A stretch of DNA of 64,000 bases, taken from Celeribacter sp. HF31 (GTDB lineage: Bacteria; Pseudomonadota; Alphaproteobacteria; Rhodobacterales; Rhodobacteraceae). Location: positions 248,001 through 312,000 of the forward strand of contig NZ_JAATOT010000001.1 in NCBI RefSeq assembly GCF_011806455.1, given 5' to 3'. The first letter of the stretch is position 1. Each line of letters starts with the position of its first letter. This document shows positions 1,110-12,843 of the stretch, in pieces. Under the pieces are notes generated by a model, which did not search any database, was not told the DNA's origin, and was given only the letters and a program-made list of their open reading frames with translations. The position numbers were made by a program, and so were the translations under genes.

Positions 1110-3299
<2,190 letters not shown>

Positions 3300-3614
3300 G
3301 AGGTCCTCCTCTTTACGATTCTGCGACAGGGGATTTCCCCTGTTTTAGGCTTGCCAAAGCGGGTAGCGGAGTAGGGGGCGCAAGTCAATGTGTGCAACTG
3401 TATACTGCGACCGTCCGGGGCGATGTTTGCGCCAGTCAGATGCCACGCTGTGCGAGGTTTTGCAGAGACCCCGGGACAGAGATGTGCGCAAAGCAGAGGG
3501 TGTTGAACTTTGCTGCTTAAATAGTGTGCGATTGCGCAGCAATTCACCGCTTGTCGTGGGGGAGATTTGCGAATCCGATTGTGAAGCGAATTCGGCACGC
3601 CTTAAATTCATTCC
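3300..3614. promoter_or_regulatory. Divergent intergenic region between icd and the Anbu cluster
   Basis: 315 bp without a credible gene. It must hold the promoters of icd (minus) and of the ATP-grasp gene (plus). It is AT-richer towards 3500-3610. I could not pick out confident -35/-10 pairs or an operator by eye. Confidence 0.4.
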
Positions 3615-5039
3615 ATGAGCGAGAAAAACATCTTTGATGAAATGTGGGGGACCGACGAGGTTCTGCGTGGCCCTTACAGCGAATTTCAGAGCTGGTTTCA
3701 GGACGAAGATCTGAAACGGCTGCGTGCAAAACAACGCGAGGCGGAAGAGGTGTTTCGCCTGGCGGGCATCACCTTCAACGTCTACGGTCGCGCCGAGGCC
3801 GAAGAGCGGCTGATCCCCTTTGACATCATCCCGCGCATCATCGCGGGGCGCGAATGGCAGAGGCTCTGCAAGGGCATCGAGCAACGCGTGCGGGCGATCA
3901 ATGCCTTCCTGCATGACATTTACAACCGTCAGGAAATCATCAAGGCGGGCCGTGTGCCGCAAGAGATGATCGCCAAGAACGAGGCCTTCCTGCCGCAGAT
4001 GATCGGCATGACGCCGCCGGGCGGGGTTTATACCCATATCGTCGGCATCGACCTTGTCCGCACCGGGCCGGATCAGTTCTACGTGCTCGAAGACAACGCG
4101 CGCACGCCCTCTGGCGTCTCCTATATGCTGGAGAACCGCGAGACGATGCTTCAGATGTTCCCGGAGCTGTTCTCGCGCAACCGGGTTCAGCCCGTGCAGA
4201 ATTACCCTGTGAATTTGCGCCGCTCTCTCGCCGCCTGCGCGCCGCCTGCCTGTGACGGGCCGCCGACGGTCGCCGTGCTGACTCCGGGGATTTACAACTC
4301 CGCCTATTACGAACACGCCTTTCTCGCCGATCAGATGGGTGTGGAGCTGGTCGAGGGGCATGATCTGCGCGTGGTCAACGGTCGCGTCGCGATGCGCACC
4401 ACCCATGGCTACAAACCGATCGACGTGCTTTACCGCCGCATCGACGATGACTTCCTCGATCCTCTGAACTTCAACCCGGAAAGTGCGCTGGGCGTGCCGG
4501 GCATCATGGATGTCTACCGCGCCGGTGGGATCACCATCGCCAACGCGCCCGGCACCGGCATCGCGGACGATAAGGCAATCTATAGCTATATGCCCGACAT
4601 CGTTGAGTTCTACACCGGCGAAAAGGCGATTCTTGAGAACGTGCCGACCTGGCGCTGTTCGGAACCCGACAGCCTTGCCTATGTGCTCGACAACCTCTCC
4701 GAACTGGTGGTCAAGGAGGTGCATGGCTCCGGCGGCTATGGCATGTTGATCGGGCCGACCTCGTCCAAGAAAGAGATCGAAGAGTTCCGCAAGAAACTCA
4801 CCGCGCGGCCCGGCAATTACATCGCCCAGCCGACGTTGGCGCTTTCCACCGTGCCGATCTTTACCAAGTCCGGGCTGGCGCCGCGCCATGTGGACCTGCG
4901 GCCCTTTGTGCTCTGCTCGCCCGAGGGGATCGACATCACGCCCGGCGGCTTGACCCGTGTCGCCTTGGAAAAAGGCTCGCTCGTGGTGAACTCGTCACAG
5001 GGTGGCGGGACCAAGGACACTTGGGTTCTGGAAGACTGA
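3615..5039 (+). CDS. Circularly permuted ATP-grasp protein (DUF404/DUF407 type), Anbu cluster
   Basis: 474 residues with no signal peptide, the usual size for the circularly permuted ATP-grasp family that pairs with alpha-E proteins. Family-typical stretches are GVSYMLENRETM in the first half, GSGGYGML (nucleotide-binding loop) at about 370, and HVDLRPFV near 425. ATP-grasp enzymes join a carboxylate to an amine using ATP, and comparative genomics assigns this group to peptide ligation; the substrate is unknown. It is the first of four same-strand genes, 13 bp before the alpha-E gene, and the last two of the four are a transglutaminase and an Anbu peptidase. A long open frame on the opposite strand across this gene is a shadow. 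Confidence 0.92.
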   Translation: MSEKNIFDEMWGTDEVLRGPYSEFQSWFQDEDLKRLRAKQREAEEVFRLAGITFNVYGRAEAEERLIPFDIIPRIIAGREWQRLCKGIEQRVRAINAFLHDIYNRQEIIKAGRVPQEMIAKNEAFLPQMIGMTPPGGVYTHIVGIDLVRTGPDQFYVLEDNARTPSGVSYMLENRETMLQMFPELFSRNRVQPVQNYPVNLRRSLAACAPPACDGPPTVAVLTPGIYNSAYYEHAFLADQMGVELVEGHDLRVVNGRVAMRTTHGYKPIDVLYRRIDDDFLDPLNFNPESALGVPGIMDVYRAGGITIANAPGTGIADDKAIYSYMPDIVEFYTGEKAILENVPTWRCSEPDSLAYVLDNLSELVVKEVHGSGGYGMLIGPTSSKKEIEEFRKKLTARPGNYIAQPTLALSTVPIFTKSGLAPRHVDLRPFVLCSPEGIDITPGGLTRVALEKGSLVVNSSQGGGTKDTWVLED

Positions 5040-5052
5040 GGGGAGGACAGAG

Positions 5053-5994
5053 ATGCTTGGGAAAACGGCAAATGGCCTCTACTGGATGTCACGCTATCTG
5101 GAGCGCGCGGAGAACACCTCGCGGCTTGTGGAAACCGGCCAGCGGATCGGTCTGACGCGATTGGGTCAAGACGATGACGAATGGGCCTCTGTGATGCGCT
5201 CGGCGTCGGTTCTGGCGGGCTATGAAGAGCACCACGACGAGGTGACGAAAGACGCGGCGATCAACTGGATGCTGCGGGAAAAGGCCAATCCGGCCTCGGT
5301 GCTTTCGACCATTTCGGAGGCGCGGCAAAACGCCCGCATGGTGCGCACGGCGCTGACCCATGAGGTTTGGGAGGCGATCAACGGCTGTTACATGGCGGTG
5401 AAGGACGCTCTGGCACGCAAGGTGTCGGAACGTGATCTTCCTGCCGTTCTGGGCCTCATTCGGCAACGCACCGCCTTGGTGCGCGGTGCCACCCACGGGA
5501 CGATGCTCAGAAATGACATCTACGATTTCACCCGTTTGGGCACCTTCCTTGAACGCGCCGATGCGACCGCGCGGATACTGGATGTGAAATACTACGTGCT
5601 TTTGCCCTCGGCCTTTGCGGTGGGCTCGTCGATCGACAATGTGCATTGGGAAACCATCCTGCGCTCGGTCTCGGCGCGGGGCGGATTTCGCATGGCTTAT
5701 GGCTCTCAGGTCAACGCCCGCGACATCGCACAATTCCTGATCCTCGACAAACGCATGCCGCGCTCTCTGAACTTTTGTGCGACGAAGATCCACAACAACC
5801 TGAGCTATCTCGGCGCTGACTACGACACGCCTCCGCAATCTTCTCTGATGGCAAAGGCACTGGTGGATCGTTTCATGAACCACGACATTGAGGCGGTTTT
5901 CGACTATGGTCTTCATGAATATATCCAGACGGTCCTGAGCATGCTGAGTAAGCTCGGCCAGCAGATCGAGAAAGACTATCGGTTCTATGAGTAA
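5053..5994 (+). CDS. Alpha-E domain protein (DUF403), Anbu cluster
   Basis: 313-residue all-helical protein beginning GKTANGLYWMSRYLERAENT, the diagnostic N-terminus of alpha-E proteins. The ATG at 5053 follows a GGGGAGGAC ribosome-binding site; an in-frame extension further upstream overlaps the preceding gene and is unlikely. Alpha-E proteins occur almost always beside circularly permuted ATP-grasp genes or fused to them, and are thought to work with them in peptide synthesis; no activity is firmly assigned. It lies 13 bp after the ATP-grasp gene and 6 bp before the transglutaminase gene, so co-translation is likely. Confidence 0.92.
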   Translation: MLGKTANGLYWMSRYLERAENTSRLVETGQRIGLTRLGQDDDEWASVMRSASVLAGYEEHHDEVTKDAAINWMLREKANPASVLSTISEARQNARMVRTALTHEVWEAINGCYMAVKDALARKVSERDLPAVLGLIRQRTALVRGATHGTMLRNDIYDFTRLGTFLERADATARILDVKYYVLLPSAFAVGSSIDNVHWETILRSVSARGGFRMAYGSQVNARDIAQFLILDKRMPRSLNFCATKIHNNLSYLGADYDTPPQSSLMAKALVDRFMNHDIEAVFDYGLHEYIQTVLSMLSKLGQQIEKDYRFYE

Positions 5995-6000
5995 ATCCAG

Positions 6001-6810
6001 ATGCGCCTGACCATTCGCCACACGACCCGCTATTCGTTTGAGAGTCCCGTCACCTACGGGCTTCAACAGCTGCGCAAGACGCCGAAAACCGGCCATGGCC
6101 AAGAGGTGCTCACCTGGTCGACGACGGTGAGCGGCGGGCAAAAGGAGCTGTCCTATCACGACCATATGAACAATCTGGTTGAGCTGATTTCCTTTGAAAA
6201 AGATGCGCAGGAGTTGGTGATCTCCTGCGAGGGCGAGGTCGAGGTCGCGGACAATCATGGCGTGGTCGGCCAGCATCGCGGGCCTTCACCTCTTTGGCTG
6301 TTCGACAGCGTGACGCCTCTGACCAAACCCGGCGCAGGCGTGCGGGCCCTCGTCAAACAGGTCGAAGGCGAAACGGATCTCGAACGCCTCCACGCGCTGT
6401 CCAAATTGGTGGGCGAAGCGGTGACATACGAGGTCGGCAGTTCGCACGCCGACGGCAGTGCCGAAGAGGCGCTGAGTGAGGGCAAAGGCGTCTGCCAAGA
6501 CCACGCCCATGTTTTCATCTCCGCCGCCCGCGAGATGGGATTTCCGGCACGCTATGTTTCCGGCTACCTGATGATGAACGACCGCACCGAACAAGATGCC
6601 ACCCACGCTTGGGCCGAAGCCCATGTGCGCGGCCTCGGATGGGTCGGATTCGACGTCTCAAACGAGATTTGCCCCGACCAACGCTACGTTCGTGTCGCAA
6701 CAGGTCTGGACTACCGCGATGCCGCCCCTGTAACTGGCACGAGATACGGCGGCGAGGGCGAATCCCTCTCTGTCGAGATCGAAGTCATACAGCAACAAGA
6801 GCAACAATAA
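6001..6810 (+). CDS. Transglutaminase-like cysteine peptidase, Anbu cluster
   Basis: 269 residues: an N-terminal beta-rich domain (about 1-90) beginning MRLTIRHTTRYSFESPV, then a transglutaminase-like papain fold. The triad is visible: Cys165 in GKGVCQDHAH, His202 in DATHAWAEA and Asp218 in GFDVSNE. No signal peptide, so probably cytosolic. In this family such enzymes cleave or transfer amide bonds; here the partner set (ATP-grasp, alpha-E, Anbu) suggests action on the peptide tag or product made by the ligase pair, which is inference. The gene starts 6 bp after the alpha-E stop and ends 9 bp before the Anbu gene. Confidence 0.93.
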   Translation: MRLTIRHTTRYSFESPVTYGLQQLRKTPKTGHGQEVLTWSTTVSGGQKELSYHDHMNNLVELISFEKDAQELVISCEGEVEVADNHGVVGQHRGPSPLWLFDSVTPLTKPGAGVRALVKQVEGETDLERLHALSKLVGEAVTYEVGSSHADGSAEEALSEGKGVCQDHAHVFISAAREMGFPARYVSGYLMMNDRTEQDATHAWAEAHVRGLGWVGFDVSNEICPDQRYVRVATGLDYRDAAPVTGTRYGGEGESLSVEIEVIQQQEQQ

Positions 6811-6819
6811 GGACGGCAG

Positions 6820-7551
6820 ATGACCTATTGCGTGGGGATGATGCTCGATCAGGGCCTCGTCATGATGTCCGACACAAGGACCAATGCCGGTGTCGACAAT
6901 ATCTCGACGTTCAAGAAGATGTTCTCCTGGGAGACCCCCGGCGAGCGTATTCTGACCGTCATGACCGCGGGCAATCTCGCCACCACGCAGGCGCTCGTGT
7001 CGCTGTTGGATGAGCGCACCAAAGCGCCCGAGGACCGCGAACCCTCGATCCTCTCCGCGCCGTCGATGTTTCAGGTCGCCCGCCTTGTGGCCCGCACCCT
7101 CAAAGATGTGATCGCCGACAATGCCGACGAGGGCCAGCGCGCCGACAGCGCGTTTAACGCCACCGTGCTTTTGGGAGGTCAGATCAAGGGCTCCGAGCCA
7201 CGCCTGTTCCTGATCTACCCTGAGGGTAATTTCATCGAGGCGGGCGCTGAAACGCCGTTTTTCCAGATCGGCGAGACCAAATACGGCAAGCCCATTCTGG
7301 TGCGTGCTTACGATCCGCAGATGTCCTTTGAAGAGGCCGTCAAACTGATGCTTGTCTCCTTTGACAGCACGGTCAAAGCCAACCTCTCCGTGGGCTTGCC
7401 CTTCGATCTTCAGGTCATCGAAAAAGACAGCTATCAGGTCGCCTTTCAGCGCCGCATTACGGCGGACGACCCGTATTATCATGAGATTTCAACGGGATGG
7501 GGTGAGGCTTTGAAGGCGACGTTGGACGGGCTACCCGGGTTTAAATTTTAA
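6820..7551 (+). CDS. Anbu, proteasome-like Ntn hydrolase
   Basis: 243 residues of the Anbu (ancestral beta subunit, also called bacterial proteasome homologue) family. The protein begins MTYCVGM, so removal of Met exposes the catalytic Thr with no propeptide, as in other Anbu proteins. The DTRTNAGVD segment at about residue 18 and the later SVGLPFDL and ITADDPYY segments are typical. Anbu forms open ring or helical assemblies in studied species and has no settled substrate. It closes the four-gene cluster; its stop overlaps the stop of the convergent tsaD in a shared TTAA. The alternative call HslV is excluded by length, N-terminus and the absence of hslU. Confidence 0.92.
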   Translation: MTYCVGMMLDQGLVMMSDTRTNAGVDNISTFKKMFSWETPGERILTVMTAGNLATTQALVSLLDERTKAPEDREPSILSAPSMFQVARLVARTLKDVIADNADEGQRADSAFNATVLLGGQIKGSEPRLFLIYPEGNFIEAGAETPFFQIGETKYGKPILVRAYDPQMSFEEAVKLMLVSFDSTVKANLSVGLPFDLQVIEKDSYQVAFQRRITADDPYYHEISTGWGEALKATLDGLPGFKF

Positions 7552-8540
7552 GGCGTCTCTAAGCTCAGGTTCGGCTTCGGCATCAATTCCGGCTGCAATC
7601 CGCGCTCGACATAATCCCAAGTCGCCATGGCGATCATCGCCGCATTGTCGGTGGCCCATTTCATCGGCGGCAGGCACAGTTCGACGCCATGTTTCTCCGC
7701 GACTTTGCCCATCGCCTCGCGCAACTGAGGAGAGGCGGCGACGCCCCCGACAATGACCAGAGACTTCGGTTTGCACTCCGCCAGCGCCCGGTCCGCCTTG
7801 GCCGTCAAAACATCCATGCAGGCCGCCACGAAGGAGGCCGACATATCCTCGACCGAGACCTCCGGGTGCTTTTCGATATGCCGCGCGACAGAGGATTTCA
7901 GCCCGGAAAACGAGAACTCATAAGCGTCATTCTTCATCGGACGCGGCAGGCGCAACACGGGGGCTCCCGCCTTTGCCGCCTTATCAATCGCCGGACCGCC
8001 AGGCATGCCAAGCCCCAGCATCCGCGCGACCTTGTCATAGCTTTCGCCCACCGAGTCGTCCCGCGTCGTGCCGAGCAGGCGATAGGACCAGGCGTCTTTC
8101 AGCTCGGCAATCAACGTATGCCCGCCGGAGACCAGCATGATCACGGCGGGAAACTCGGTCTTGCCGCGCTCAAGCGCCACCGACCGGATATGCCCGCGCA
8201 AATGGTTCGCACCGTAAGCCGGCACACCCCAGCCCATCGACAGCGCCTCCGCCGTCGACAGCCCGACCAAAAGCGAGCCGATCAGGCCGGGGCCACGGGT
8301 CACGCCGATGGCGGTCAGATCCCTCGGAGTCACCGAAGCCTCGTCCATAACCGATTGAATCGTTGGAAGAATGGCTTCGAGATGCGCGCGTGAGGCCAGC
8401 TCCGGGTAGACGCCGCCAAAGGCCTCGTGAATTTCGAATTGCGACACGGTCTGGATCGCGGCGACATGGCCCGTGCGGTCCACCAAAGCGACAGAGGTGT
8501 CGTCGCAAGAGGTCTCGATGCCAAGGATCAAATCGCTCAT
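7548..8540 (-). CDS. tsaD: tRNA N6-threonylcarbamoyltransferase TsaD (Kae1/Gcp)
   Basis: 330 residues; transfers threonylcarbamoyl from its AMP derivative to A37 of ANN-decoding tRNAs. The start is the ATG inside the ATGA overlap with tsaC; an upstream extension exists but would run into tsaC. Family marks are the N-terminal ILGIETSCDDTS, the metal-binding NHLRGH (His113, His117), and the ASDH-fold elements VSGGHT and FSGLKS. It is the last gene of tsaE-tsaB-tsaC-tsaD, and its stop overlaps the stop of the Anbu gene on the other strand. Essential in most bacteria. Confidence 0.97.
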   Translation of the reverse strand: MSDLILGIETSCDDTSVALVDRTGHVAAIQTVSQFEIHEAFGGVYPELASRAHLEAILPTIQSVMDEASVTPRDLTAIGVTRGPGLIGSLLVGLSTAEALSMGWGVPAYGANHLRGHIRSVALERGKTEFPAVIMLVSGGHTLIAELKDAWSYRLLGTTRDDSVGESYDKVARMLGLGMPGGPAIDKAAKAGAPVLRLPRPMKNDAYEFSFSGLKSSVARHIEKHPEVSVEDMSASFVAACMDVLTAKADRALAECKPKSLVIVGGVAASPQLREAMGKVAEKHGVELCLPPMKWATDNAAMIAMATWDYVERGLQPELMPKPNLSLETP

Positions 8541-9130
8541 GCCAGCACCTCGTGAATTTTTGCCTCTGACACCACCCCATGGCGCAGGATGACAACCGGA
8601 TCGCGGGTGCAATCGACGATGGTCGAGGGGGCAGGGGCCGCGCCTTTGCCCGGCACAATGAGATCGGGCGCGCCGAAGAGTTGCTCTGCGGCCTCTTCTG
8701 TTGTCGCGGGCGGCTCGGCGCCGGAGCGGTTGGCCGAGGTGACCATCAAAGGACCTGATTTTTCAAGCGCTTCGAGCAATAGAACATTGTTCGGAATACG
8801 AACTGCGATCTCTGTGCGCCCGATCAGCCAGGCGGGCACCAGCATCGGATCGAGCGCCAGAACCAGCGTCAGCGCGCCGGGCACGTAAGCGCTTGCGAGG
8901 AGTTTCAGAGCGCTCTCAGAGAGCACCGCGCCCAGCCCCGCGATCTGGTCTGCGCCTGCCACCATGATTGGCAGGTTCTTGTCGCGGGGACGTTGTTTAA
9001 GTGTGTAAATCTTCTCAATCGCCTGCGCGTGTGCGGGCGAGGCGGCGAGGCCCAGAACCGTATCCGTGGGCAAAAGTACCACGCCACCGGACCCGAGAAC
9101 CTCGGCGATCTGATCCGAGGAGGGCGTCAT
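8537..9130 (-). CDS. tsaC: L-threonylcarbamoyladenylate synthase, TsaC/YrdC type
   Basis: 197 residues covering one YrdC domain; makes threonylcarbamoyl-AMP from Thr, bicarbonate and ATP, the first t6A step. Motifs: VVLLPTDTVLGL at about 17, KQRPRDKNLPIM, and MVTSANRSGAEPP. It lacks the extra C-terminal Sua5 domain. The start overlaps the tsaB stop by 4 bp (ATGA) and the stop overlaps the tsaD start by 4 bp, so translation is probably coupled through the operon. Whether a second, Sua5-type enzyme exists elsewhere in the genome cannot be seen here. Confidence 0.93.
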   Translation of the reverse strand: MTPSSDQIAEVLGSGGVVLLPTDTVLGLAASPAHAQAIEKIYTLKQRPRDKNLPIMVAGADQIAGLGAVLSESALKLLASAYVPGALTLVLALDPMLVPAWLIGRTEIAVRIPNNVLLLEALEKSGPLMVTSANRSGAEPPATTEEAAEQLFGAPDLIVPGKGAAPAPSTIVDCTRDPVVILRHGVVSEAKIHEVLA

Positions 9131-9729
9131 TCGAGCACCTCGACAATGGGATAAGCGCGGGCCTCGGGGCCGGGTGTTCCGGCGTCCAAGGCCCGTTCGA
9201 GCATCGTGTTCATGGCCGCCATATTGGTGATAGGCGCGTCATGCCCCTCAACCTCGATATTCCCGGCGAGATCGTAATCGTCCAAGTCTGAAAGCTGATT
9301 TATGGCAGATTTCTCAAGACAATGTTCGTAATGTGCAAGTTTTCCATCCCGGAAAATCCCGAAATGCACATGCGGACGCGCCGCGCGGCGCAGGATTGCG
9401 ACCGGTTTTCCGGTACTCACCTCTGCGCCCAAAAGCTCGAACGCCGCGAGGGACAGAACCGGAATGCCCCGCGCAAATCCAAGCGCATTGGCGAAAGCCG
9501 CCGCCGTGCGCGTGACGCCCAAGCCACCGGGGCCGATGTCACAGGCGATGAGGCTCAGGTCTGACAAAGCGCCGCCACAGGCCGCGAGCCCGGTTTCCAA
9601 CAGCATACGATAGTCGCGCGATCCGCTCAGCGTCTCATCTTGCGATGAGTCGAAGACAATCTCACCGCCGCGTCCCAAAGCCAGCGCTGGCACGCCGTTC
9701 GAGGCCTGAATGAGCAAGGTGATCGTCAT
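9127..9729 (-). CDS. tsaB: tRNA t6A biosynthesis scaffold protein TsaB
   Basis: 200 residues, an inactive ASDH-fold paralogue of TsaD that binds TsaD and TsaE. Motifs: N-terminal LLIQASNGVPALAL, the central IACDIGPGGLGVTRTA stretch (equivalent to GPGSFTGLR in other TsaB proteins) and GIPVLSLAAFELL. The ATG at 9729 sits in the 4-bp overlap with tsaE; a longer frame upstream lies inside tsaE and is rejected. No rimI gene follows, in contrast to the common tsaB-rimI pairing; tsaC is there instead. Confidence 0.92.
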   Translation of the reverse strand: MTITLLIQASNGVPALALGRGGEIVFDSSQDETLSGSRDYRMLLETGLAACGGALSDLSLIACDIGPGGLGVTRTAAAFANALGFARGIPVLSLAAFELLGAEVSTGKPVAILRRAARPHVHFGIFRDGKLAHYEHCLEKSAINQLSDLDDYDLAGNIEVEGHDAPITNMAAMNTMLERALDAGTPGPEARAYPIVEVLE

Positions 9730-10187
9730 GTGAGTGCCTCCAAAACTGGCGACCAGCGCGGCGCCTCTGCGGTGAATGTCACCTGCCGCTCCATCTCGCT
9801 GTCCCCAAAGCCGATGCGGATCGACAGCGGCGCATCGAAATAGTCGGCAATCCGCTCGCCCCATTCGATCACGGAAACCCCGGTGTCGAAATACTCTTCC
9901 AAACCAAGGTGATAGAACTCATGCGCGCCTTTCAAACGATAGGCGTCGACATGAAGAACCGGCCCTTTGGGGGTCTCATAGATATTGGCAATCGTGTAGG
10001 TCGGGCTGGTCACCGCCTCGTCAGACCCCAGAGCGCGGACCAAGGCACGGGTGAAAAACGTCTTGCCCGCCGCCAAGGCGCCATCCAAAAGCACGACATC
10101 GCCCGGACGCAAGAGAGCCGCCAGCGCTGAGGCGATCTGCGCCGTGTCCTCTTCGGAGGCAACATGTTTGACGAGTGTCTGCGCCAC
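9726..10187 (-). CDS. tsaE: tRNA t6A biosynthesis ATPase TsaE
   Basis: 153 residues, P-loop ATPase that regenerates the TsaB-TsaD complex. Walker A is GALAAGKTFFTRAL at about residues 36-49 (Lys42, Thr43); downstream are TSPTYTI and the VIEWGERI motif typical of the family. I chose the GTG at 10187 because AAAGGG lies about 8 nt upstream; a longer frame upstream has no ribosome-binding site. First gene of the tsaEBCD run, 84 bp after dtd on the same strand. Confidence 0.93.
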   Translation of the reverse strand: MAQTLVKHVASEEDTAQIASALAALLRPGDVVLLDGALAAGKTFFTRALVRALGSDEAVTSPTYTIANIYETPKGPVLHVDAYRLKGAHEFYHLGLEEYFDTGVSVIEWGERIADYFDAPLSIRIGFGDSEMERQVTFTAEAPRWSPVLEALT

Positions 10188-10271
10188 GGATGAACCCTTT
10201 CTTTGCAGGCGATTTAGGACAAAGCGCGGCAAAGGTCCATGGGGGAGGCGGCAAGAGACGGGCAGGGGCGA

Positions 10272-10712
10272 TCAGGCGTCTGTGTCGAGCCAGATTGTGA
10301 TCGGCCCATCATTGATCAGCGAGACTTTCATATCCGCGCCAAAGATGCCTTTTTCACACGGCACGCCCTCAGCCACCAGACGCTCGGTGAAATAGTCGTA
10401 AAGCGCCTTGCCCTCGTCCGGGGCGGCGGCGGTGGAAAAGCCGGGGCGGTTGCCCTTGGTCTCGGCGGCGAGCGTGAACTGGCTGACGACCAGAGCGGTG
10501 CCGCCGATATCGCGCACGGAGAGGTTCATCTTGCCCGCATCATCCTGAAAAATCCGCAGCTTGGCGATTTTCGCGGCCAATTTATCCGCCTGCGCCTCGG
10601 TGTCGCCGCGCATGGCGCAGACCAGCACCAAAAGGCCCGGGCCGCTTTGGCCCACAGTCGCGCCGTCGACGCGCACGGCGGCTTCTGAAATGCGTTGGAT
10701 GAGGGCTCTCAC
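10272..10712 (-). CDS. dtd: D-aminoacyl-tRNA deacylase
   Basis: 146 residues; hydrolyses D-amino acids (and Gly from tRNA-Ala) off mischarged tRNA. Both family signatures are present: SQFTLA at about 78-83 and NDGPIT near the C-terminus (about 135), which form the cross-subunit Gly-cisPro active site. Start codon GTG at 10712. It lies between the PfkB kinase and the t6A operon on the same strand, giving a translation-fidelity neighbourhood. A 13-bp duplication sits just upstream, at the end of the kinase gene. Confidence 0.95.
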
Positions 10713-10726
10713 GATAGGGTCTCCAA

Positions 10727-10752
10727 TTCATGTTGCCAGTTCATGTTGCCAG
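10727..10752. repeat. 13-bp tandem duplication at the kinase/dtd junction
   Basis: TTCATGTTGCCAG occurs twice without a gap (10727-10739, 10740-10752). It spans the stop codon of the kinase gene; deleting one copy in silico restores a longer kinase C-terminus ending in a GTGA overlap with dtd. Confidence 0.9.
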
Positions 10753-11654
10753 GGCGGATTTGCACCCGCGCGGGACACGGTGACCGCCGCCGCCTGCGCC
10801 CCCAAAGTGAGGGCGGCGCGCAGCGTCTCGTCATCCAGCGCAGCAATCGCGTCTTTGGTCAATTTTCCCGCCCGTTGCAACCCCGCCAAAAGCCCCGCGT
10901 TGAACGTGTCGCCGGCGCCGACCGTATCGACCACCTCGACGCGGGTGCTTGCCACATGGGTGGTGCCGCGCGCCGTGATGCCTTTGACGCCATCCGCGCC
11001 CATGGTGAGGCAGACAAGTTTCACCCCCATGCCCAAAAGCGTGGCGATATGGGCGTCAATGTCGCCCTCTCCCATCAGCCAAATGAGGTCTTCGTCGGAG
11101 AGTTTGACGATGTCGGCATGCGCCAGCATATGGTCCAATCGTGCACGATAACGGGCCTCATCGCGGATAAATCCGGGCCGAATGTTCGGATCCATCATGG
11201 TGACGCGCGTTGCGGCGGCCTGGACAAACAGGGCTTCATAGGCCGCGCCACAGGGTTCAACAGGCAAAGAAATACCGCCGCAGAACAGCGCCTCCACAGT
11301 GTCTGGCAGCGCGGGCAGGTCCGCCTCCGTCAACATCCGCCCGGCGGTGTTCTCATCGTAGAAAGCATAGGTTGCATGGCCATCAACCAGCTTAACGAAG
11401 GCAACGGTACAGGGTCTGTCGGCGGTGACAGCCAGGGAGGTGTTCACATGGCTCTCGGCGAGTTTGGCCTTCAAAAGATCGCCAAAGAAATCCTGAGAGA
11501 ACCCGGAGAAAAACCCCACATCCGCGCCAAGCCGCCCCAAAGCGACAGCGGTGTTGAACACGGCCCCGCCCGCGTGGGGCGCATAGGCGTCTTCGCCCAG
11601 CGTCGAAGTGCGAGGCAACATGTCGATCAGGGCTTCACCGGCGCAAAGGATCAT
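10728..11654 (-). CDS. PfkB-family sugar kinase (fructokinase-like)
   Basis: 308 residues of the ribokinase/PfkB fold, beginning MILCAGEALIDML as fructokinases often do. The first PfkB signature is GGAVFNTAVALGRLGADVGF (about 30-50) and the second is VDTVGAGDTFNAGLLAGL with the catalytic Asp in GAGD (about 240-250). The ATG at 11654 is preceded by GGAGG at ideal spacing; another ATG four codons upstream lacks one. It phosphorylates a sugar or nucleoside; fructose is the best guess, not proven. Its C-terminus was altered by the 13-bp duplication noted separately. Confidence 0.9.
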   Translation of the reverse strand: MILCAGEALIDMLPRTSTLGEDAYAPHAGGAVFNTAVALGRLGADVGFFSGFSQDFFGDLLKAKLAESHVNTSLAVTADRPCTVAFVKLVDGHATYAFYDENTAGRMLTEADLPALPDTVEALFCGGISLPVEPCGAAYEALFVQAAATRVTMMDPNIRPGFIRDEARYRARLDHMLAHADIVKLSDEDLIWLMGEGDIDAHIATLLGMGVKLVCLTMGADGVKGITARGTTHVASTRVEVVDTVGAGDTFNAGLLAGLQRAGKLTKDAIAALDDETLRAALTLGAQAAAVTVSRAGANPPWQHELAT

Positions 11655-11736
11655 CTCTTCCTCCATGATTGATCTGTGATAGCGCTAGCACGCAACGCCT
11701 GCCCGAGTAAATGCGCAGCGGAAGACACCGCCAGAC

Positions 11737-12843
11737 TTATTGGTTCATTGCGATGATATAGCCGAAGACCGCAGCGACAATCGCCCCCGCAAGGACCGCA
11801 AAGGCAATTTTCCACGCGGAATAGGGACGTTCGCCCTGCACCCGCCCGGTGCGACCGTTGACGACGAAGCGATAGGTCTTGCCGCGATATTTATAGGCCG
11901 CCATCCAGATCGGCAGGAGAATGTGTTTGAAGGTCACCGCAGAGACCGCGGTGTCCATGTCATGCACGCGCTGACGATCGCCGCCGATGTCGAATTTCAC
12001 ATCGCGCAAGATCACCCGATCCATGTAATCGCGCGCGTTCTTGTAGCCCGAGTCCAAGGGCACGGAATAGGCGGTGGCACGAAACCCGGCGAGATAATCG
12101 GGGATATAGGGTTCAAGTTCGGAGAGATCCCAAGGTTCAAGGCCGTCGGAAAACTGACGCGGCAGGGCGTCGGAGGCCCGCACCAGGACATCGTCGAAAA
12201 ACCGCGAGACACGTCCGGCGGAGGCCCGCCAACGGGTGTGGCGCTTGCGCACGGTCTGGCGTTTGCCGTTTCGGGTGACGGTATGCGATGTGTAATAATC
12301 GTCACCGCGTTCGCCACGATACTGCGTCGCGGTCTGCGCATCAAATGTCCAATAGGGCAGGTAGACGCCCGACATTTTCCGCCCTTTGCGGGCGTAGGAT
12401 TTCAACCCATTGGGCGCAAACCACAGGCTTCCGAGCCAATCGCTCATGGCATCATGCGCGGCCTCTTCGGTCAACGCAAAGGGCAAAAGACCGTGGGGCT
12501 TGATATGACGATGCGCGCCCGTGTCGGTGACGACGGGGGTCGCACAAAACGGGCATTCGGTCGCATGCAGGTCTTCGTCGAATTCCACCTCCGCGCCGCA
12601 ATTTGGACAAGTCGCGACGCGCGTTTCTTCCATCTCTTGCTGAGGGATTTGTGACGTGAGGGCGGATTCGAAATCCACCTCACGCGGTGCGCGCGCGTTG
12701 CTTGTGTCCAGCGCTTCTGTGGCCCCGCAATGATCACAAGACAGCACTCCCTTCGCCGGATCGAACCGCATATCGGCGCCACAGGTGGTGCAGGGAAACC
12801 GGTGTTCGGTCATGTCAGATGAGGCGGATGTGTCCAAATTCAT
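11737..12843 (-). CDS. Zinc-ribbon membrane protein (often misnamed primosomal protein N')
   Basis: 368 residues with two rubredoxin-like knuckle pairs at the N-terminus: CTTCG...CDHCG (about residues 18-39) and CPNCG...CPFC (about 79-99). A long middle domain follows, with YLPYWTFDAQT and a YRGERGDDYYTSHTVTRNG segment, and one membrane helix at the extreme C-terminus (about 345-365, WKIAFAVLAGAIVAAVFG). Databases commonly label such proteins as PriA-related, but no helicase motifs are present. It is divergent from the CZB gene and next to the XpaC-TelA operon, so a role in the same envelope or stress function is possible. A tail-anchored zinc protein is what the sequence supports. Confidence 0.75.
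   Translation of the reverse strand: MNLDTSASSDMTEHRFPCTTCGADMRFDPAKGVLSCDHCGATEALDTSNARAPREVDFESALTSQIPQQEMEETRVATCPNCGAEVEFDEDLHATECPFCATPVVTDTGAHRHIKPHGLLPFALTEEAAHDAMSDWLGSLWFAPNGLKSYARKGRKMSGVYLPYWTFDAQTATQYRGERGDDYYTSHTVTRNGKRQTVRKRHTRWRASAGRVSRFFDDVLVRASDALPRQFSDGLEPWDLSELEPYIPDYLAGFRATAYSVPLDSGYKNARDYMDRVILRDVKFDIGGDRQRVHDMDTAVSAVTFKHILLPIWMAAYKYRGKTYRFVVNGRTGRVQGERPYSAWKIAFAVLAGAIVAAVFGYIIAMNQ

Follow-up and report, generated by a model that had tools for sequence, protein, structure and literature searches.

The DNA analysed here is a 64,000-nucleotide stretch of the Celeribacter sp. HF31 genome (contig NZ_JAATOT010000001.1, positions 248,001 to 312,000), called the window below. 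Open reading frame (ORF) analysis of the window showed that four plus-strand genes, separated by gaps of 13, 6 and 9 bp, fill positions 3615-7551, which confirms the coordinates of an initial annotation made from the same DNA. The identities proposed there, an ATP-grasp protein, alpha-E, a transglutaminase and the proteasome relative Anbu, were borne out by Pfam matches and by solved Anbu relatives. The four genes are as follows.

3615-5039, plus strand: circularly permuted ATP-grasp ligase, 474 amino acids (aa); PF14403 (CP_ATPgrasp_2) 5.1e-167, PF04174 4e-147; solved relative 3n6x 6.9e-197
5053-5994, plus strand: alpha-E, 313 aa; PF04168 1.4e-83; helical AlphaFold2 model with a predicted local distance difference test score (pLDDT) of 93.5 and a predicted template modelling score (pTM) of 0.92
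6001-6810, plus strand: transglutaminase-like protein, 269 aa; PF01841 Transglut_core 4.1e-24, PF08379 Bact_transglu_N 1.2e-19
6820-7551, plus strand: Anbu, 243 aa; Pfam Proteasome 1.5e-9; 5loy 1.4e-88; 5nyj 8.8e-75

The Pfam scores of the first two proteins were far above the family cut-offs (556 bits versus 32 for the ATP-grasp, 281.5 bits versus 20.8 for alpha-E). The alpha-E start was set at ATG 5053, and not at GTG 5002 of the ORF list, which overlaps gene 1, because with that start the Pfam match covers the protein from residue 1. The gene order ATP-grasp, alpha-E, transglutaminase-like, Anbu is identical to that of the Anbu operon of Yersinia bercovieri and other bacteria in PMC6376114 and PMC5666114. 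The window Anbu also shares with the published ones Thr1, Asp17, Lys32 and four of five Anbu-1 S1 residues, with Thr for Ser at position 55. The window operon differs in being known from sequence alone and in having no sigma-54-like site upstream. By these comparisons, the four genes are almost certainly an ordinary, textbook Anbu operon of the Anbu-1 type.

The distribution of the four genes was compared among 299 genomes sampled across the phylum. Alpha-E was found in 156 of them, and the ATP-grasp in the identical 156. Anbu was present in 101 genomes, 100 of which belong to this 156-genome set, and DUF2126, the marker of a sister cluster described below, in 84, all of them (84/84) within the set. 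Inside the set, Anbu and DUF2126 were distributed independently of each other (51 genomes with both, 49 with Anbu only, 33 with DUF2126 only, 23 with neither; p 0.40). Because of this paired and nested occurrence, the ATP-grasp and alpha-E look like a core, to which Anbu and DUF2126 would be separate add-ons. At a cut-off of 1e-40, the ATP-grasp counts may also take in the fused type described below; the best E value was 3e-185 or lower in 155 of the 156 genomes and 8e-84 in the other, G149. The genome lists were transcribed by hand before comparison. A divergent Anbu-like match was seen at 6341-6934 of L210 in genome G016 (1.9e-32, 113.6 bits), the other 101 matches scoring at least 220 bits. 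The existence of the operon was already known, and the nested occurrence is what the present comparison adds; no statement of it was met in the literature passages on the Anbu operon, and Iyer 2009 may contain one.

The arrangement of the genes was then compared between loci. Loss of the four-gene linkage in relatives had been named in the initial annotation as evidence against its cluster; the linkage was instead kept in 77 of the 80 closest Anbu loci listed, with four genes in standard order on one strand. The closest locus among the matches listed is that of Celeribacter persicus (L001, 88% Anbu identity). Three of the 80 remain: L043 starts within alpha-E at a contig end, and L039 and L074 deviate. 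A wider sample of 60 Anbu loci from 59 genomes was picked from the 102 Anbu matches in 101 genomes so as to thin genera; it includes 7 loci of the close group, and several of its loci end at contig ends. Four genes on one strand were found in 32 of these loci, while 12, in 11 genomes, lacked core genes over about 7 kb around Anbu, the core lying elsewhere in all of these genomes. The others comprised 9 with genes of both systems (L198 being classed so from a large-type transglutaminase match alone), 5 with ATP-grasp and alpha-E without the operon-type transglutaminase, and 2 with DUF2126 without alpha-E nearby, a class that takes in L208, where the ATP-grasp is at the edge and alpha-E just outside. 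The linkage seen in 77 of the 80 closest loci listed is far beyond chance. The earlier description of a complete four-gene cluster overstated the unity of the genes: only the ATP-grasp and alpha-E look obligate, and Anbu lies elsewhere in 12/60 loci of the wider sample.

In the two deviating loci, L074 (genome G299) and L039 (G300), the sole Anbu of the genome follows another transglutaminase-core protein and faces a DUF2126 cluster in convergent orientation. This different protein is encoded directly 5′ of Anbu on the same strand (7071-7859 in L074, 6282-7064 in L039). The ATP-grasp, alpha-E and transglutaminase genes stand together elsewhere in both genomes, the transglutaminase of G300 running into a contig end. 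Two alpha-E genes each were found in G299 and G300, and one each in the canonical genomes of L013 and L036.

The candidate catalytic residues of the window proteins were located and their conservation was counted in aligned relatives.

4089-4103, plus strand: E-x-N-x-R motif codons of the ATP-grasp, E159-D160-N161-A162-R163; kept in 125/125 rows, 124 distinct
4572-4574, plus strand: Lys320 codon, candidate ATP lysine; 125/125 rows
4713-4742, plus strand: Lys367-Gly376 codons including the GSGGYG glycine-rich loop (371-376); Lys367 in 124/125 rows with one gap, GGYG in 122/125
6493-6495, 6604-6606 and 6652-6654, plus strand: transglutaminase Cys165, His202 and Asp218; triad in 112/112 rows
6823-6825, 6871-6873 and 6916-6918, plus strand: Anbu Thr2 (mature Thr1), Asp18 and Lys33; kept in aligned rows

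By analogy with the ATP-grasp superfamily, the E-x-N-x-R motif would be the metal site, and Lys320 is a candidate for the ATP lysine. Mfla_0391 (PDB 3n6x, a putative glutathionylspermidine synthase) is a full-length relative of the window ATP-grasp over residues 5-474 (6.9e-197), the function of Mfla_0391 being an annotation. Phosphate release has been published for the Y. bercovieri ATP-grasp (PMC6376114). The intact Cys165/His202/Asp218 triad and the Anbu Thr directly after the initiator Met, both listed in the initial annotation, were found at the same positions. The triad was invariant in the 112 aligned rows (111 distinct sequences). The Anbu N-terminus reads MTYCVG, and the residue after Met was Thr in 139/141 and Ser in 2/141 rows (140 distinct), whereas Asp18 and Lys33 (mature Asp17 and Lys32) were invariant in 141/141. 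The rows counted were those above 100 bits and 200 residues, with the window entered twice.

A profile search placing the last gene in HslV or another N-terminal nucleophile (Ntn) hydrolase family had also been proposed as a test of its identity. When this search was run, no HslV model of NCBIfam matched the window Anbu at E up to 1, and the best solved relatives were the designed Anbu protein 5loy (1.4e-88) and the Anbu 5nyj (8.8e-75). A separate HslV gene is present in the same genome (3.1e-80 to the HslV model). The window protein falls in the Pfam Proteasome family together with HslV and the archaeal 20S beta subunit, but it has no HslV match, and assignment as an archaeal 20S proteasome beta subunit was rejected at 38.3 bits versus a cut-off of 224. 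The Anbu-1 S1 pocket, as given in PMC5666114, consists of T20, F30, T48, L52 and S55. Residues T21, F31, T49 and L53 of the window Anbu agree with it (four of five), and position 56 is Thr, as it is in 119/141 rows.

The alpha-E protein was found to consist of two similar halves.

5080-5496, plus strand: first alpha-E repeat (residues 10-148); ER motif E17-R18 at 5101-5106
5530-5970, plus strand: second alpha-E repeat (residues 160-306); ER motif E167-R168 at 5551-5556

Profile-profile alignment matched the halves over 139 columns with a probability of 99.4 and an E value of 2.3e-21, while the controls gave 0.5 for the reversed profile and at most 0.9 for 20 column shuffles. When only the two halves of the window protein were compared, phmmer found nothing at E 10, although blastp gave 3.1e-5; the claim of duplication rests on the profile comparison. 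Judged by it, alpha-E is an internal duplication in which the known ER motif is present twice. No title or abstract start about the duplication was found among the papers listed for the operon and for alpha-E under its present, older and COG names, which is not proof of unpublished status. The AlphaFold2 model of alpha-E (47 sequences) has seven helices in residues 2-150 and eight in 155-308, the last two adjoining. No sequence relative was found in the PDB at E up to 1. A Foldseek search of the PDB and a viral library gave no fold relative at 0.001 (best E 0.94 and 0.40, respectively), and Foldseek cannot prove the novelty of a fold. Diiron enzymes and UbiA were considered as fold relatives and rejected, at template modelling (TM) scores of about 0.2.

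The same genome carries a sister cluster at L088 (G000:C7:124000-142000), positions 5489-12281 on the minus strand. It encodes three proteins: a transglutaminase, a fusion of ATP-grasp and alpha-E (807 aa) and a transglutaminase-DUF2126 protein of 1147 aa. No Anbu was found within the 18 kb around it. This cluster shares with the window operon alpha-E and a homologous ATP-grasp, the ATP-grasp half of the fusion aligning end to end with the window protein in profile alignment (2e-112), and it carries two transglutaminase-like proteins. It differs in that ATP-grasp and alpha-E are fused, in that a putative amidoligase is present, and in the ATP-grasp motifs: E-x-N-x-R and GGYG were each found in 0/37 rows of the fused type, compared with 125/125 and 122/125 rows of the window type, when equal glycine-loop patterns were scored on both. 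E159, N161 and Lys320 were likewise kept in 0/37 fused rows. This alignment includes the fusion of the own genome and leaves out the duplicate L251 and L254. In total, 38 distinct natural fusion genes were collected (39 ORFs, one from the own genome and two representing one gene twice); they were picked with the fused query and ORFs of at least 600 aa, so that no frequency estimate is given.

Because the fused ATP-grasp has lost the E-x-N-x-R and glycine-loop motifs, it is presumably dead and serves as a scaffold, and DUF2126, described in Pfam as a putative amidoligase, would be the ligase of this cluster. Against a dead ATP-grasp, fused rows keep D160 in 33/37, Lys467 in 27/37, and R163 and a Lys at 367 in 4/37 each, and GG.G occurs somewhere in 6/37. 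Together with D160, the residues R91, D101, E233, D250, D282, N310, R429 and D468, kept in 37/37 fused rows and also in the window type, suggest a retained shape or partner surface. The model of the fusion reached pLDDT 88.5 and pTM 0.87 over 807 residues, which suggests a definite domain packing, because such a pTM would be hard to reach with loosely placed domains. Its best fold relative was 3n6x (TM 0.88 by target), followed by eukaryotic-type glutathione synthetases, glutathionylspermidine synthetase and YgiC. These synthetases extend a small peptide at its carboxylate by adding an amine. Six loci (L189, L197, L203, L204, L205 and L209) have Anbu placed with the large transglutaminase-DUF2126 protein on one side and the fused ATP-grasp/alpha-E on the other, so that the two systems share a super-cluster. 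Five of the six also hold a separate ATP-grasp and alpha-E, and L203 alpha-E only.

The region upstream of the window operon was searched for regulatory sites.

3300-3614, plus strand: divergent intergenic region, presumed promoter region, bounded by the 5′ end of ORF 1110-3299 (minus strand) and by ATG 3615

No sigma-70-like site was found in this region. A sigma-54 promoter was rejected for the window, whose best site has 4 mismatches, the enrichment of such sites being confined to 36 distant clusters. Upstream of 11 of these 36, sigma-54-like sites with at most 1 mismatch were present, 4 of them exact, compared with a background of 0.18/36 and a highest count of 3 in 50 draws; the sites lie at -50 to -315 from starts taken from alignments. 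The heptamer ATTGCGC was seen upstream of the ATP-grasp start in the window at -84 (3524-3537) and in ten other close clusters, all at -92 to -56. It occurs in 11/82 close upstream regions, compared with a background mean of 4.25 and a maximum of 10 in 200 draws, and as a shared promoter element it is a possible lead only, since some loci are near relatives. AAAAAACA was seen in 8/82 close upstream regions, mostly at -136 to -85.

Published data link the families to nitrogen. In passages of PMC5491218, the DUF404/407, DUF403, transglutaminase and large transglutaminase genes of a Burkholderia cenocepacia ntrC mutant change by -8.2, -9.4, -9.4 and -6.0, and the same passages name no Anbu in that cluster. 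DUF404/407 is the ATP-grasp family and DUF403 the alpha-E family. Moreover, the two families go with urea-metabolism domains in marine metagenomes (PMC3597751), and the Anbu COG is listed in the proteobacterial sigma-54 regulon in a 2025 survey (PMC12316311). A further "DUF403" in PMC3710099 was a prefix match to DUF4037 and was rejected. On this evidence, control by nitrogen is plausible at the level of the family but unproven in the window organism.

Downstream, the last four bases of the Anbu gene are shared with the convergent ORF 7548-8612. We take the minus-strand row at 7548-10232, judged by eye from the ORF list, to resemble the tRNA t6A-modification genes (tsaD, tsaC-like, tsaB, tsaE), convergent with Anbu. 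A role in anti-phage defence was considered and rejected, as no PADLOC family matched any of the 4 proteins at E up to 0.001.

From these observations we infer substrates, a direction of reaction, a role for alpha-E and a nitrogen role in this organism, in a reading to which we give a probability of about 0.5: a two-protein peptide-ligase core, with the transglutaminase and Anbu acting on its product. The ATP-grasp would spend ATP to activate a small peptide or an amino acid at a carboxylate and would join this to an amine while docked on alpha-E, the acceptor being held or positioned by alpha-E. The transglutaminase-like protein, through Cys-His-Asp, and Anbu, through its N-terminal Thr, would cut, trim or recycle the product. 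Anbu may then be an optional module with a dedicated job on the product of the core and not in general proteolysis; the dedicated job is favoured because Anbu is found almost only alongside the core. The setting is probably nitrogen economy. The division in the initial annotation, in which the first two genes ligate and the last two cleave or transfer, fits as a grouping with E-x-N-x-R in 125/125 rows, the pairing of ATP-grasp and alpha-E in 156/299 genomes and the intact hydrolase residues.

Several observations weigh against the peptide-ligase reading. Whatever the core does, it does without Anbu in 56 core genomes, so that Anbu is dispensable for it. Genome G094 alone has Anbu without the core, and no alpha-E or ATP-grasp lies in the 14 kb around it; this locus, L221, with Anbu on the minus strand near 6053-6775, is a test case for an independent Anbu. 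All 299 genomes belong to one phylum, so that shared ancestry inflates the co-occurrence and the Fisher values are not independent probabilities. According to PMC6376114 and PMC5666114, none of the peptides tried was cleaved by the Anbu proteins under test, and the operon's proteins were not found to form a complex; in PMC5666114, Fuchs et al. regard protein degradation as the better match for the shape of the ring and the binding of inhibitors. As to the nitrogen setting, a sigma-54-like site is absent upstream of the window operon (best 4 mismatches in 3300-3614) and present in 1/82 of the close group.

Other explanations were weighed against the same evidence. It is possible, though doubtful, that alpha-E is the heart of both systems: duplicated, of a fold that has no known relatives and with two Glu-Arg sites related by the repeat, it would hold the acceptor for two ligases, the ATP-grasp activating in one line and being a dead scaffold in the other, where the DUF2126 amidoligase acts instead, and Anbu and the transglutaminases would be exchangeable processors of a common nitrogen-shortage product. 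Unlikely, in our judgement, is that Anbu serves protein turnover as a self-compartmentalising protease of general scope, with its neighbours doing no more than regulating or feeding it. An open dodecameric or lock-washer ring has been published for Anbu of other species (PMC6376114 and PMC5666114) and agrees with such a protease, as do the labelling of Pa-Anbu Thr1 by epoxomicin and MG132 and the upregulation of Anbu in nitrogen-limited P. putida (PMC5666114) and the candidate catalytic residues kept in 139-141 of 141 rows. However, a protease acting on its own would be expected in many genomes that lack the core, yet 100 of 101 Anbu genomes have it; standard substrates were not cleaved (PMC6376114, PMC5666114), the genome already has HslV, and no AAA+ partner of Anbu is found in published work (PMC5666114).

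The missing AAA+ partner also argues against protein tagging, in which the ATP-grasp and alpha-E would attach a peptide tag and Anbu would remove it or degrade the tagged protein, as proposed by Iyer 2009 and others (cited in PMC6376114). Ligase and hydrolase residues do stand intact side by side, but no fifth gene lies inside the cluster, whose flanks were not searched for a tag protein, and we hold tagging to be rather improbable. Release of ammonia, with the transglutaminase-like protein and Anbu as amidases of amide compounds in nitrogen shortage and the ATP-grasp preparing or storing the compound, would fit the NtrC control of the related B. cenocepacia cluster (PMC5491218), the co-variation with urea-metabolism domains (PMC3597751) and the sigma-54-like sites of distant clusters. 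Deamidation lacks direct evidence, no promoter site of this kind occurs in the window, and the peptidases are the nearest relatives of Anbu within the Ntn hydrolases; this explanation appears quite improbable. That the four genes are chance neighbours has next to nothing left in its favour beyond the 12/60 sampled loci that lack core genes over about 7 kb around Anbu, and is refuted by the ordered linkage in 77/80 closest loci listed, by the 32/60 sampled loci with all four genes on one strand and by the nested occurrence in 299 genomes.

Anbu is related to the proteasome but has no known job, and views on it differ, some favouring the degradation of proteins and others a pathway that makes peptides. 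The pattern of nested occurrence favours the peptide-making view and names the ATP-grasp and alpha-E as the pair to purify together. Concrete structural targets are the motif-less ATP-grasp of the sister cluster and the duplicated alpha-E, for which no fold relative was found.

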